IMG/VR virus record: IMGVR_UViG_3300036832_000304
Location: 1-29,674 of that record
Origin: a virus
DNA length: 29,674 nucleotides
Strand: one strand, 5' to 3'
The notes beneath the pieces were generated by a model. That model worked only from the letters and a program-made list of their open reading frames with translations, was not told where the DNA came from and ran no database searches. Position 1 is the first letter of the stretch, and every line of letters starts with the position of its first letter. Shown in pieces: positions 15,987-27,278 of this stretch. The position numbers and the translations under genes are program-made.

Positions 15987-16484
15987 CTAGAGCGCCAGCA
16001 CCGAGGCCCGCTCCTGGTCCGTTAGGACCCTTGGATACGGGAACGGCTCGGGCTCGCGGGCTTGCTCATATCGCTCGGCGATGTGCTGGAAGCGCAAAAA
16101 GAAATCATCCGGCTCGCAAAACAGGCCAGGTGAAAAGACGCCATCATGGATTTCCTGAAACCAAACCGCCCGCATCCCGGGATATCCGCGCCCGATAAGC
16201 ACGCGAACGCGCCGGTCCAGGAGCGTTAGATTTCGCAACGCGAGGCGCTGCGCTTCGCCGAGGATGACCGGCCCCTTGTCCTGCCCGGTGACCTTTTTCC
16301 ACTCGATAAAGACGAACCGGATTCCGAACTCATAGAGTCCATCAATATCCATTAGCCCGCGCCGTCCGCCCGGGAGATAGCGCGCCAGCGCCGAAAGCTC
16401 CGGCATCTGCGCGAGGTAGCAATTCGGCGGAGCCTCGAGGCCCTCCGGAGCGCACCGATGCATCATCGGGCGGGCTTTAGCCAT
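15987..16484 (-). CDS. PD-(D/E)XK-like nuclease
   Basis: The 165-residue protein holds a plausible PD-(D/E)XK core: MDIDGLYEFG with Asp46 or Asp48, then the hydrophobic strand RFVFIEWKK with Glu61-X-Lys63, and GEAQRLALRNL about 15 residues later, with Glu78 and Gln80, the usual helix after the core. Another strand is RRVRVLIGRG. The N-terminus has two Cys (HRCAPEG, PNCYL). Its ATG overlaps the end of the adenine methyltransferase gene by eight bases, so the two are surely co-translated. It may be a phage recombination or VRR-NUC-like nuclease, or a partner of the methyltransferase. The motif reading is good; the role is open. Confidence 0.8.
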   Translation of the reverse strand: MAKARPMMHRCAPEGLEAPPNCYLAQMPELSALARYLPGGRRGLMDIDGLYEFGIRFVFIEWKKVTGQDKGPVILGEAQRLALRNLTLLDRRVRVLIGRGYPGMRAVWFQEIHDGVFSPGLFCEPDDFFLRFQHIAERYEQAREPEPFPYPRVLTDQERASVLAL

Positions 16485-17430
16485 AAGGCCCCCGGAGCGG
16501 CGTGAGGATGGTCGCGGTCGCGTGGAAGACCTCGGCGAACCGCCCGATGAACGGCCCGAAATAACAAACCATTTGGCCTTGCGTTGGCTGCGCCATCTCG
16601 CCGGCCTTGGAAATGAAATGGATGCGTCCGCGCGTGAATCCGATGGCGTCGGCGGCCTCCATGGCGGCCTGAGACCATGCGGTGTCGGTGTAGTTGTGGG
16701 TTAGGAGGATGGCTTGCGCGACCCGCGCGCTGCGGACCTCGGCGATGAGCTTGGCGACGAACTCGGAGAGTAGCGGTTGCGCGTAAGGCGGGTTTAGCCA
16801 CACCCGGCCCGACCACTCTTGCGCCAGGCCGTCATCATCCGCGCTAAAGTACCGCTCGGCCTGGACGGTGGCTTGCGCTTGCGCGCTGGAGGCCGGGTCC
16901 AGGTCAATCCCGCCCATCACCGCCCGCGCCAGCTCCAGGACCGGCGGCGGCGTAAACCACTCGTTTTCCCCGGTGAAGTTCGTTCGATGCGCCGGCTTGT
17001 CGATGAGCCCGCGCGTGGTCGGCCTTTCCTCTTTCTCAAGCGCCGCCTCGAACTCCGGCGCCGGGATGGCGGCGAGCCGTTGGAAGCGGCTCGCGTCCTG
17101 CTTTGAGAGCCCGATACGCGCTAGCGTTTCGGCGAACGGCGAGGGCGATTTGGTCCCGTCTCGGGACGAAATATGACGCTCCGTTGGCGGCGTGCGTTCC
17201 TCGGATTCCAGCAATTCGCCGGTCCGGCGCTCGGCCCGGATGCGGATATTGATGGCGCGGTGTTCGGCCTCGATGTTCTTGGCCTGGTGCGCGTAAATCT
17301 CCAGCGCCCTCGCCTTGTCGGCGATGTCCTTGGCCTCATCGACCCGCTCGCACTCCACAATCGCGGCGCACATCCGGTCATAGGTCGGGACCGAAATCAG
17401 CGCGTTATCTGGAGTAACAGCGTAATTCAT
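16477..17430 (-). CDS. DNA N6-adenine methyltransferase, phage Dam type
   Basis: The 317-residue protein has two parts. The N-terminal 145 residues are helical and charged, with TYDRMCAAIVECERVDEAKD and a LARIGLSKQDASRFQRLAAI segment that looks like a DNA-binding helix pair, as in ParB-like N-termini attached to phage Dam proteins. The catalytic domain starts NEWFTPPPVLELARAV (about 156-171), then GGIDLDPASSAQAQ and the motif IV WLNPPY (Asn213-Pro-Pro-Tyr216), typical of N6-adenine enzymes. The S-adenosylmethionine loop (FxGxG) is not obvious, which is usual in this family. It may protect the phage DNA or alter GANTC or other adenine sites; the target cannot be read from sequence. Confidence 0.92.
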   Translation of the reverse strand: MNYAVTPDNALISVPTYDRMCAAIVECERVDEAKDIADKARALEIYAHQAKNIEAEHRAINIRIRAERRTGELLESEERTPPTERHISSRDGTKSPSPFAETLARIGLSKQDASRFQRLAAIPAPEFEAALEKEERPTTRGLIDKPAHRTNFTGENEWFTPPPVLELARAVMGGIDLDPASSAQAQATVQAERYFSADDDGLAQEWSGRVWLNPPYAQPLLSEFVAKLIAEVRSARVAQAILLTHNYTDTAWSQAAMEAADAIGFTRGRIHFISKAGEMAQPTQGQMVCYFGPFIGRFAEVFHATATILTPLRGPYG

Positions 17431-23789: not shown

Positions 23790-24844
23790 GCCGCCTTGCT
23801 CCCATAGCCTCCAGCCGGGAACCGCGCGCCATGCCTGCGCCAATGCTGGACCGTCGTTTTCACGAACTCGGTCGGCATATCCAGCCGCTCGGAGATTTCC
23901 CGGACCATCACGCCGCCCATCCGGAGGTCGCGGATTTCCTCCCGCATCTGGTCGTAAGCCGCGATATTGGCGAAGCCCCAATGAGCGGCGCCCCTAGCCT
24001 TGGCGAGAACGGCGGGGAGATAGTCCGGCGAACGGCGGTCCTTGGCCGGCGCCGCGCCTTTTATCACCGCGCCCATCCGGGGCCGTCCGATGGACTCCAG
24101 CAAGGCATAAACCACATAAGGCGAAACCTTGAGGTCGATGGCGACCTTGGTCGGCAACTCGCCCAAGCCCTCGACCCGCCGCAAAATCTCGTAACGTTGC
24201 GCGATGTAGGCTTGCAGCGTCATCCCGCGCCGCGCGGCGGCTTGCGCCATGGTTTTGAAGCCCCGGGAGTCATGCGGCCCCATCGCCGCCATCGAGCCCG
24301 CCGCGCTCGCCGAGAGCCCCGGCAAGAGGCTTGGATTTTCCCAAACCGGCGAGGCCGGGTCTTCCCACCACCACGGCGGAGGCGGAATCGGAACGCCCTC
24401 TAGCTTGCGGCTTTTCGGCGGCGAGCCCTTGGCTTTCGGCTTGGCCTCATCGCCGGGGAACACGACCCGGCCTTCCGTCCGGGCCTTGCGTTTGAGCCGC
24501 ACCACCACGCCGAGTCCAATCCCGAGGTCGGCGGCGATGATGTGGTCGGCTTCGCCGCGCAAAGCGCGCTCGATGATTTGACCTTCTAGGCTGGTGGAAA
24601 CGAGGCTCTCGGCGAACGGGCTGGTCAACCGTCGCGGCTCGGCCCTTGAGATGGGCCGTTGTGCGGCTTCCATCCCGAAAGGGACGGGCGGTGACCAGCC
24701 CGCCGCCCGCGCGAGGGCCTGCGCGTGCTGAATTACACTGTCCCGGACTTCACCCGGCGGGATGGCCGAGAACGCCTCGACCAGCTCGGCGGCGCCGGAC
24801 AAGGAAAAGAATTGCGCCATACGGACGCTATCAATTTGCGACAT
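23786..24844 (-). CDS. Multi-HTH DNA-binding protein, 352 residues
   Basis: The start is ATG at 24844, which overlaps the end of the preceding regulator gene by 14 bases. Three segments look like helix-turn-helix units: about 87-122 (IIERALRGEADHIIAADLGI followed by a Leu/Val helix and basic RLKRKAR), 226-254 (LPTKVAIDLKVSPYVVYALL) and 300-336 (GGVMVREISERLDMPTEFVK with the end TVQHWRRHG). Between the first two is a Pro/Trp-rich linker, IPPPPWWWEDP. The design suggests a protein that binds DNA at several sites, perhaps a regulator of this operon or an origin-binding protein. I do not recognise a named family, and the units were found by eye. Confidence 0.75.
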   Translation of the reverse strand: MSQIDSVRMAQFFSLSGAAELVEAFSAIPPGEVRDSVIQHAQALARAAGWSPPVPFGMEAAQRPISRAEPRRLTSPFAESLVSTSLEGQIIERALRGEADHIIAADLGIGLGVVVRLKRKARTEGRVVFPGDEAKPKAKGSPPKSRKLEGVPIPPPPWWWEDPASPVWENPSLLPGLSASAAGSMAAMGPHDSRGFKTMAQAAARRGMTLQAYIAQRYEILRRVEGLGELPTKVAIDLKVSPYVVYALLESIGRPRMGAVIKGAAPAKDRRSPDYLPAVLAKARGAAHWGFANIAAYDQMREEIRDLRMGGVMVREISERLDMPTEFVKTTVQHWRRHGARFPAGGYGSKAA

Positions 24845-25211
24845 TGCGGCCCCCCGGCGCCGGCTTGTGGTTTCCATTGGCGGCGCCGTGACCATGGGCG
24901 GGCGCCCACGTCTTTGTGTAGCCGAGCGCCATGGCTACGACCGTGAGCGTAAAATTCTGCGGGCGCCGGACCGAGCCATAGAGCCAATTCAGAATCGTGA
25001 ACCGGGACACCCGCCACCCGAGCTTTGCGGTTTCGTGTTCGATGTCCTCGGGGCTTAGGCCGCTCTCGCCGATGATGCCGACGATTAGGTCCATATCCGG
25101 GTCCTTATCGAGCCACGAATAAGCGTAATAATTTGGCGTGGTCGGAATGAAGTTCGGTCGCCGAGGCGCGGGTCGATGGACCCGCCCGATGTAGCGTGGT
25201 GCATCCGGCAA
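24831..25211 (-). CDS. Putative HTH regulator, first gene of the leftward operon
   Basis: The 126-residue protein is read from TTG at 25211, chosen because GGGAGG lies five bases upstream. The core resembles a lambda-repressor-like fold: MDLIVGIIGESGLSPEDIEH, GWRVSRFTILNWLYGSVRRP (turn and recognition helix) and NFTLTVVAMALGY. An ATG at codon 40 is possible but lacks the ribosome-binding site. The gene diverges from a rightward operon, and an 18-bp palindrome sits 25 bases upstream of the start, so it is a good candidate for an autoregulated switch protein of the phage. Confidence 0.75.
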   Translation of the reverse strand: MPDAPRYIGRVHRPAPRRPNFIPTTPNYYAYSWLDKDPDMDLIVGIIGESGLSPEDIEHETAKLGWRVSRFTILNWLYGSVRRPQNFTLTVVAMALGYTKTWAPAHGHGAANGNHKPAPGGRNVAN

Positions 25212-25216
25212 TTGAG

Positions 25217-25222
25217 CCTCCC
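25217..25222 (-). promoter_or_regulatory. Ribosome-binding site that fixes a TTG start
   Basis: GGGAGG stands five bases before the TTG at 25209-25211. No other start in that frame has such a site. Confidence 0.65.
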
Positions 25223-25235
25223 GCCCGGTAACAAA

Positions 25236-25253
25236 CGCGCGAACTTTCGCGCG
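25236..25253. promoter_or_regulatory. Inverted repeat, candidate operator in divergent control region
   Basis: CGCGCGAA and TTCGCGCG form perfect 8-bp half-sites with a 2-base spacer (CT). The site lies in the 125-base gap between the leftward HTH regulator and the rightward operon. The centre reads GAACTTTC, close to the AAACTTTC unit repeated at 27093-27251. Confidence 0.6.
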
Positions 25254-25336
25254 CGGGCTAGAAGGAAACCCCTAAAATCCGTAAGTTGCAAGCCTCGAGG
25301 GCTGGCGCATCGAAACCCGGGCGGGCGGTATGTGCC

Positions 25337-25537
25337 ATGATTTTCCAGTGGAGCCGCGCAACTCGCGTGTGGGAGCTGGTCGCCGACAGCGGCGAGTCAA
25401 TTGGAACGGCGAGCCCCGTTCCTGGAGACCTCTGGGAAGCGCAAATGAGCCCGATGTTCGGCGGGCGTCATGCGCTGGCGAGCGACCTGGATATGCTCCA
25501 AAGGTGGATGATGGCGGAGGCGAGTGAGCCTAGATGA
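25337..25537 (+). CDS. Small protein of the rightward operon, 66 residues, unknown
   Basis: Read from ATG at 25337, it begins MIFQWSRATRVWELVADSGE and continues SPMFGGRHALASDLDMLQRW. A longer version from TTG at 25286 would add 17 residues. Its stop overlaps the next start as ATGA, so the two rightward genes are coupled. The pattern 'ELVADSGESIG' suggests a short beta hairpin, the end a helix. No family is recognised. It is one of only two plus-strand genes and is probably expressed from the divergent control region. Confidence 0.6.
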   Translation: MIFQWSRATRVWELVADSGESIGTASPVPGDLWEAQMSPMFGGRHALASDLDMLQRWMMAEASEPR

Positions 25538-25749
25538 AACCCGCCGAAATCCGCGCCGAGCCCTCCACCGAAACCGGGGTCGCGTTCCTGGACGCCTCAA
25601 GCCGGCGTTCTTGCCTATGGCCGCTCGGCGGCGCCGGGGCCGAGCTGGTGGTTTGCGGCGAGGCTCGAACGGCGGGGTCGTCCTATTGCCAGGAGCATGA
25701 TGAGCTGGCGCATGGCGCCGCACATCCGCCGCGCATCAAGGTCCCATAA
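25534..25749 (+). CDS. GcrA-like protein, C-terminal zinc-knuckle part only
   Basis: The 71-residue protein holds SCLWPLGG (Cys27), VVCGEART (Cys41), and SYCQEHDELAH (Cys52, His55). This closely matches the C-terminal region of GcrA, 'C-x-WP ... FCG ... YC-x-x-H', an alphaproteobacterial regulator that binds sigma70 and methylated GANTC promoters. The N-terminal DNA-binding HTH domain of GcrA is absent. The protein may therefore bind the same partner as GcrA without binding DNA, as a mimic or competitor; this is inference. It ends 14 bases inside the tail of a small leftward ORF. Confidence 0.75.
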   Translation: MKPAEIRAEPSTETGVAFLDASSRRSCLWPLGGAGAELVVCGEARTAGSSYCQEHDELAHGAAHPPRIKVP

Positions 25750-27078: not shown

Positions 27079-27278
27079 CAGGCCGCTCCGGCAAACTTTC
27101 TTTCACCCCGCTCTATATAGGGTTGAAAGTTTTGAAAGTTTCGAGGTCCAAACCGAGAACGATGCCCCCCTAAGCCGTTGATTTCGCTCGATAGGCCGAA
27201 ACTTTCATCGAAACTTTCACAAACTTTCATCGGCGGGCTGGTGAAAGTTTCGCCGGGGCGCTCATTCGTCCGGGTCAT
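27075..27278 (-). CDS. Small ORF built of iteron-like repeats, 67 residues, doubtful gene
   Basis: ATG at 27278 lies inside the end of the primase-helicase gene, preceded by a G-rich stretch, and the stop overlaps the start of the methyltransferase (GTGA), as a real operon gene would. The protein begins MTRTNERPGETFTSPPMKVC and continues ESFDESFG, reflecting the repeated AAAGTTT bases. Either a small gene carries the repeats, or the frame stays open by chance within a cis-acting site. No family is recognised. Confidence 0.4.
   Translation of the reverse strand: MTRTNERPGETFTSPPMKVCESFDESFGLSSEINGLGGHRSRFGPRNFQNFQPYIERGERKFAGAAW
27093..27251. repeat. Iteron-like cluster: seven AAACTTTC units
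   Basis: The 8-mer AAACTTTC occurs on the plus strand from 27093, 27199, 27211 and 27221, and in reverse (GAAAGTTT) from 27125, 27134 and 27243. Several are extended to GAAACTTTCA. Spacings of 9 to 12 bases within groups, close to one helical turn, suggest that a protein binds side by side. The position next to a primase-helicase gene fits a replication origin; an operator array is the alternative. Confidence 0.75.

Follow-up and report, generated by a model that had tools for sequence, protein, structure and literature searches.

A phage microprotein that is essentially a stand-alone GcrA sigma-interacting domain, with a possible action on host sigma70

A small plus-strand gene of a phage contig encodes a 71-residue protein that, from its sequence and predicted fold, is essentially one GcrA sigma-interacting domain (SID), a stand-alone form probably derived from GcrA through loss of the DNA-binding domain. 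The explanation that we consider best, with a confidence just short of even, is that this domain would bind domain 2 of host sigma70 and compete there with host GcrA. The window, by which we mean the whole stretch of DNA analyzed (29.7 kb, 64.8% G+C), includes genes for head, tail, terminase, portal, primase-helicase, and RuvC-like proteins. The minus strand encodes almost all of these genes, and two small ORFs occupy the plus strand at 25337-25749. The features discussed below are as follows.

16477-17430, Dam-family adenine methyltransferase (Pfam PF05869)
24831-25211, minus strand, conserved neighbor of 126 residues, 75% identical in the nearest relative, L159, where it lies directly after the SID gene
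25239-25250, palindrome GCGAACTTTCGC, within the leader that precedes the divergent gene 24831-25211, and upstream of the ORF1-SID unit as well
25337-25537, plus strand, ORF1, 66 residues (ATG at 25337, stop TGA at 25535-25537), an orphan with weakly supported status as a gene
25534-25749, plus strand, SID gene, 71 residues (ATG at 25534, stop at 25747-25749), recognized by its Pfam GcrA match, its fold match, and its relative in L159
25807-27078, minus strand, C5-cytosine DNA methyltransferase (Pfam PF00145), convergent with the SID gene

The product of the SID gene, MKPAEIRAEPSTETGVAFLDASSRRSCLWPLGGAGAELVVCGEARTAGSSYCQEHDELAHGAAHPPRIKVP, matches the Pfam GcrA profile PF07750 at 30.4 bits (curated cutoff 26.9), the only match to this profile in the whole record, and the match is confined to profile positions 107-145 of 155, i.e., the C-terminal end. 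It likewise aligns with the C-terminal third of phrog_16311 (151 positions), and in a phmmer search of the PDB the GcrA entries 5YIX and 7YE1/7YE2 ranked first, albeit weakly (E 0.0025-0.005). The GcrA alignment spans residues ~13 to 61 and includes a WP..G motif and the conserved residues C27, C41, C52, and H55, which are probably CCCH zinc ligands. In Caulobacter crescentus GcrA, which has 173 residues to the 71 of the window protein, residues 108-173 form the SID, which binds sigma domain 2, and residues 1-45 form the DNA-binding domain, which reads methylated DNA (PMC7403470); the crystal structure 5YIX shows the isolated Caulobacter SID with sigma70 domain 2. The SID sequence, the CCCH and WP..G motifs, and the predicted fold are shared between the Caulobacter protein (PF07750; 5YIX, 7YE1, 7YE2) and that of the window. 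Most other stand-alone SIDs retain the consensus motifs WPIGDP and FCG, whereas the window protein has WPLGGA and VCG at these positions, and its affinity may differ as a consequence of these departures.

AlphaFold2, given 61 aligned SID domains of viral contigs, produced a model with a mean pLDDT of 78, rising to ~92 over residues 41-60. A Foldseek search of 350,542 PDB chains with this model returned three matches, all of them GcrA (5YIX, 7YE2, and 7YE1), with E-values of 0.08-0.65 that are weak because the domain is tiny. By VIA-align, 47 of the 48 residues of the 5YIX SID superposed at 1.9 A (Z 5.0), and the sequence profile of the aligned SID domains matched 5YIX at 4e-21. An earlier sequence-only reading of this DNA had recognized a GcrA-type C-terminal end here, and the alignment and the predicted fold, which matches the GcrA SID only, place the resemblance well beyond generic cysteine spacing.

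The other half of GcrA is missing. When a profile for the DNA-binding domain of GcrA was run in six frames over the region reaching ~1.3 kb upstream and 0.7 kb downstream, nothing scored above noise; a split or frameshifted GcrA was ruled out, since the domain occurs in no frame nearby. The proposal of a C-terminal-only GcrA is borne out by these searches together with the position of the Pfam match. Lacking the DNA-binding domain, the protein has no means of reading methylated GANTC in the manner of GcrA and so can at most mimic the grip of GcrA on sigma. We do not expect a 71-residue protein of this kind to activate methylated-GANTC promoters, and the name "cell-cycle mimic," under which the gene had been introduced, therefore reads too much into it. 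No GANTC is present in its promoter region (25212-25336).

The nearest relative of the window phage is L159 (also L161+L162; IMGVR_UViG_3300048895_000139), a fragmentary contig of 26 kb whose primase is 69% identical to that of the window. Its SID is also 71 residues long (51% identity over 61 residues), and the gene lies in the same gap as in the window, between the primase and the 126-residue neighbor. Between the two SID genes dS is ~1.0, dN 0.36-0.41, and dN/dS ~0.35-0.42; substitutions favor synonymous sites (Fisher P 0.002-0.006), with 18, 6, and 26 differences at the three codon positions. Taken alone, the codon score of the window gene is borderline, being reached by 9% of non-coding frames, and it is the comparison with L159 that identifies 25534-25749 as a working gene. 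By this comparison, a related phage retains the SID gene at the same position, and purifying selection maintains it.

Its surroundings are less constant. The SID gene of L159 is co-oriented with its neighbors, whereas the ORF1-SID unit of the window is inverted; in L159 the SID gene is preceded by an ORF unrelated to ORF1; and the 13-kb syntenic locus in L159 yields no tblastn match to the C5-cytosine methyltransferase of the window. Since the upstream ORF, the orientation, and the neighboring methyltransferase all differ, selection keeps the SID alone and neither a partner nor a methyltransferase. ORF1 itself had been described as a small protein of no known family coupled to the SID. That part stands insofar as its stop codon overlaps the SID start codon as ATGA, and ORF1 had no family match in Pfam or PHROGs, including to any DNA-binding family, and no relatives in any search; however, its replacement by an unrelated ORF in L159 means that the coupling is no conserved pairing. 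Its codon score is equaled by 13.5% of non-coding frames, and a single-sequence structure model was of low confidence (pLDDT 62).

Several features of the flanking DNA may be regulatory. The palindrome at 25239-25250 is a possible operator or, on the minus strand, a terminator-like hairpin, and a terminator-like flag at 25236-25255 overlaps it. The two phages share a palindrome-like motif of 12 bp, GCGAAAGTTCGC, in the leader of their 126-residue genes; the 12-mer at 25239-25250 recurs at 8565-8576 of L159. The product of that gene resembles, by eye only, a small helix-turn-helix protein, and no family was assigned to it. Repeated CAATCTTTCAC / GTGAAAGATTG motifs occur at L159:7819-7989, in the interval from the primase to the ORF that precedes the SID gene, and a related TCTTTCAC is found in the corresponding gap of the window, at 27099; these motifs are possibly operators or origin repeats.

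Truncated forms of GcrA are not confined to this pair of phages. A pattern scan of IMG/VR yielded at least 112 candidate proteins, 96 of those listed having the canonical DNA-binding domain. Stand-alone SIDs over the Pfam cutoff, among the matches listed, are those of L047, L087, L101, L147, L148, and L149; L039, L058, and L100 are less certain, and the Microcystis phage Mwe-JY25 carries a C-terminal-only GcrA gene of 75 residues (XAI95856). Together with L159 these supply the truncated GcrAs that the sequence-only reading had suggested seeking in other phages. We found no papers describing stand-alone SID proteins in the open-access literature. These proteins have 64-94 residues and are often encoded in replication operons with ATGA coupling: the SID gene of L148 has ATGA overlaps with its neighbors on both sides, and that of L147 leads into a Prim-Pol gene via ATGA. 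In L087 (773-2031) the SID is ATGA-coupled after a PF01555 methyltransferase, and in L149 (minus strand, SID start 751) it follows an NPPF-type methyltransferase in the same manner; the two SIDs are closely related and the two methyltransferases dissimilar. Like the window, L159, L147, L148, L087/L149, L047, and Mwe-JY25 have C-terminal-only GcrA, with different operon partners, and several of these SIDs adjoin N6/N4 or NPPF-type methyltransferases.

In a tree of SID domains, the window and L159 grouped together at 0.98, and the stand-alone forms were scattered beside different full-length GcrAs, a distribution that makes repeated loss of the DNA-binding domain likely, though not proven, given that deep support in the tree is poor. 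The SID also travels with other partners. A 446-residue protein, L009:1855-3192 (IMGVR_UViG_3300033997_000310), combines a DnaA domain-IV DNA-binding domain with a GcrA SID, both over their Pfam cutoffs, and the SID thus shows itself, at the level of predicted domains, to be a transferable module, found by itself, together with the GcrA DNA-binding domain, or joined to a DnaA domain. In two further GcrA-like phage proteins, L053:2024-2485 and L110:1681-2187, the N-terminal part, which does not score as the DNA-binding domain of GcrA, resembles some other helix-turn-helix, a further hint of domain swapping. A degenerate stand-alone SID below the Pfam cutoff, with CRYLLP replacing C.WP.G, was observed at L134:4989-5192 in a Salaquimonas MAG, on what appears to be a bacterial chromosome, away from recognizable phage genes and in a genome that also has a normal GcrA. 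A host search with the window head protein through 385 genomes drawn from the class to which this MAG belongs gave a match of only 38%.

Methylation sites gave little reason to connect the SID with the adenine methyltransferase at 16477-17430, which had been suggested to act on the same signaling system. No relative of this Dam-family enzyme was found in the 26-kb contig of L159, a fragment, so that its absence is unproven. CcrM-unrelated GANTC methyltransferases are known from the replication modules of Sinorhizobium phages (PMC5537653, PMC7139368), phiLM21_p027 being GANTC-specific (PMC5537653), and membership in the Dam family therefore does not by itself fix specificity. The apparent depletion of GANTC in the window (71 sites vs. 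140), taken as a possible sign of GcrA/CcrM, vanishes under synonymous-codon shuffling (50 observed vs. 53.6 expected), and GANTC is thus not avoided. The site that is avoided is GATC, with seven occurrences in 29.7 kb and five in coding sequence against 125 expected under the same shuffling; the suggested link thus finds no support in this phage. The near-absence of GATC occurs even though the phage encodes a Dam-family methyltransferase, and GTAC, CGGCCG, and CCGCGG are also almost eliminated. Among 123 GcrA/SID loci tested, only the window avoids GATC. In L159 the situation is reversed, with three GANTC and 276 GATC in 26 kb, such that the methylation site avoided differs between these two relatives. 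More broadly, GANTC avoidance, which has been reported for pelagiphages (PMC9516812), was found in about one quarter of the GcrA-bearing viral loci tested, with or without the DNA-binding domain, and phages with stand-alone SIDs did not differ in this respect from those with full-length GcrA (medians 0.64 and 0.64).

How might such a protein act? As the C-terminal domain of GcrA is its binder of sigma70 domain 2, the blocking or borrowing of host sigma70 contacts is the natural hypothesis. By analogy with 5YIX, the 71-residue SID would bind the host's primary sigma factor at region/domain 2 and, having no DNA binding of its own, would fill the GcrA site on sigma70-RNA polymerase while failing to deliver the polymerase to methylated GANTC promoters. 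With that site filled and GANTC unreadable, the simplest result would be that the protein competes with host GcrA. The net effect would most likely be that host GcrA is outcompeted during infection and that expression of GcrA/CcrM-dependent cell-cycle genes is lowered, leaving polymerase free for phage promoters. In this scheme we infer that the direction of the effect is inhibition rather than activation, and we assume that the host possesses a GcrA.

The strongest alternative, which we nevertheless regard as unlikely, is that the protein is an activator and not a competitor: bound to sigma domain 2 it could aid holoenzyme assembly or open complex formation without contacting DNA, much as Crl does with sigmaS, or it could recruit polymerase through a DNA-bound partner in trans. 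The sigma-domain-2 binders RbpA, Crl, GcrA, and GrgA are all classed as activators (PMC7403470, PMC6917491), and Crl, which acts without DNA contact, provides a precedent for a DNA-free activator at domain 2 (PMC6917491). A recruited partner would fit both the DnaA fusion of L009, in which a SID is paired with another DNA-binding part, and the frequent ATGA coupling of stand-alone SIDs to replication or methyltransferase genes. Against this reading, the upstream partner is not the same in the window and L159, and nothing in ORF1 points to a DNA-binding family. A quite improbable possibility is that phage replication or DNA-modification machinery has taken over the zinc-knuckle domain as an adapter, with sigma binding lost. 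Primase, RepO-like, and helicase genes adjoin stand-alone SIDs in replication modules, and N6/N4 or NPPF-type methyltransferases adjoin them or lie within ~2.5 kb in L005, L087, L148, and L149. However, the window SID retains the sigma-binding GcrA fold and core motifs, the methyltransferase beside it finds no match in the syntenic locus of L159, and in a profile test methyltransferase neighbors were not significantly commoner for stand-alone SIDs than for full-length GcrA (3/9 vs. 11/107, P 0.08) despite a query bias in favor of an association, which we accordingly do not claim. That the gene is a decaying, functionless remnant of a full-length phage GcrA, as its lone C-terminal domain and lowish codon score could suggest, is highly improbable and largely refuted by conservation, as the 71 residues and their position are kept in a phage ~30% diverged with constrained dN/dS and unrelated phages carry stand-alone SIDs as well.

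Among known phage systems, two kinds come closest to the window protein. A full-length phage GcrA homolog, phiCbK gp222, was already known (PMC3556154), and both it and phrog_16311 are phage genes with the GcrA C-terminal domain that are thought to alter the host cell-cycle state, but they are full-length with a DNA-binding domain, whereas the window protein is a SID only. AsiA of T4 and gp39 of P23-45 are, as proposed here for the SID, small proteins of phages that are believed to target host sigma; they bind sigma domain 4, whereas a GcrA SID would bind domain 2. The 71-residue protein showed no similarity of the AsiA/gp39 type in sequence searches of Pfam, PHROGs, and the PDB. The phage proteins reviewed as seizing sigma act on domain 4, and the reviewed binders of domain 2 are bacterial activators (PMC7403470).

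A wider proposal, tentative and on balance doubtful, is that alphaproteobacterial phages have repeatedly stripped GcrA to its SID to give early proteins of 60-95 residues that would seize sigma70 domain 2, and that some of them couple this gene to one related to a CcrM-mimicking (GANTC) methyltransferase and would thereby rewrite the GcrA-CcrM circuit in both its halves. The L149 methyltransferase is distantly similar, at 30% identity (E 1e-4), to a methyltransferase region of phiLM21. To our knowledge, phages have not previously been recognized to encode a class of proteins that targets sigma domain 2 and does not bind DNA, and this would, if true, be the first. The occurrence of similar stand-alone SIDs in several phages suggests that the domain is probably a small tool with which to interfere with or borrow host transcription. 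As a bare GcrA SID, the phage microprotein would lend itself to the role of a dominant-negative or co-factor, which Caulobacter would allow to be tested directly, and would offer a means to separate the sigma binding of GcrA from its reading of methylated DNA.
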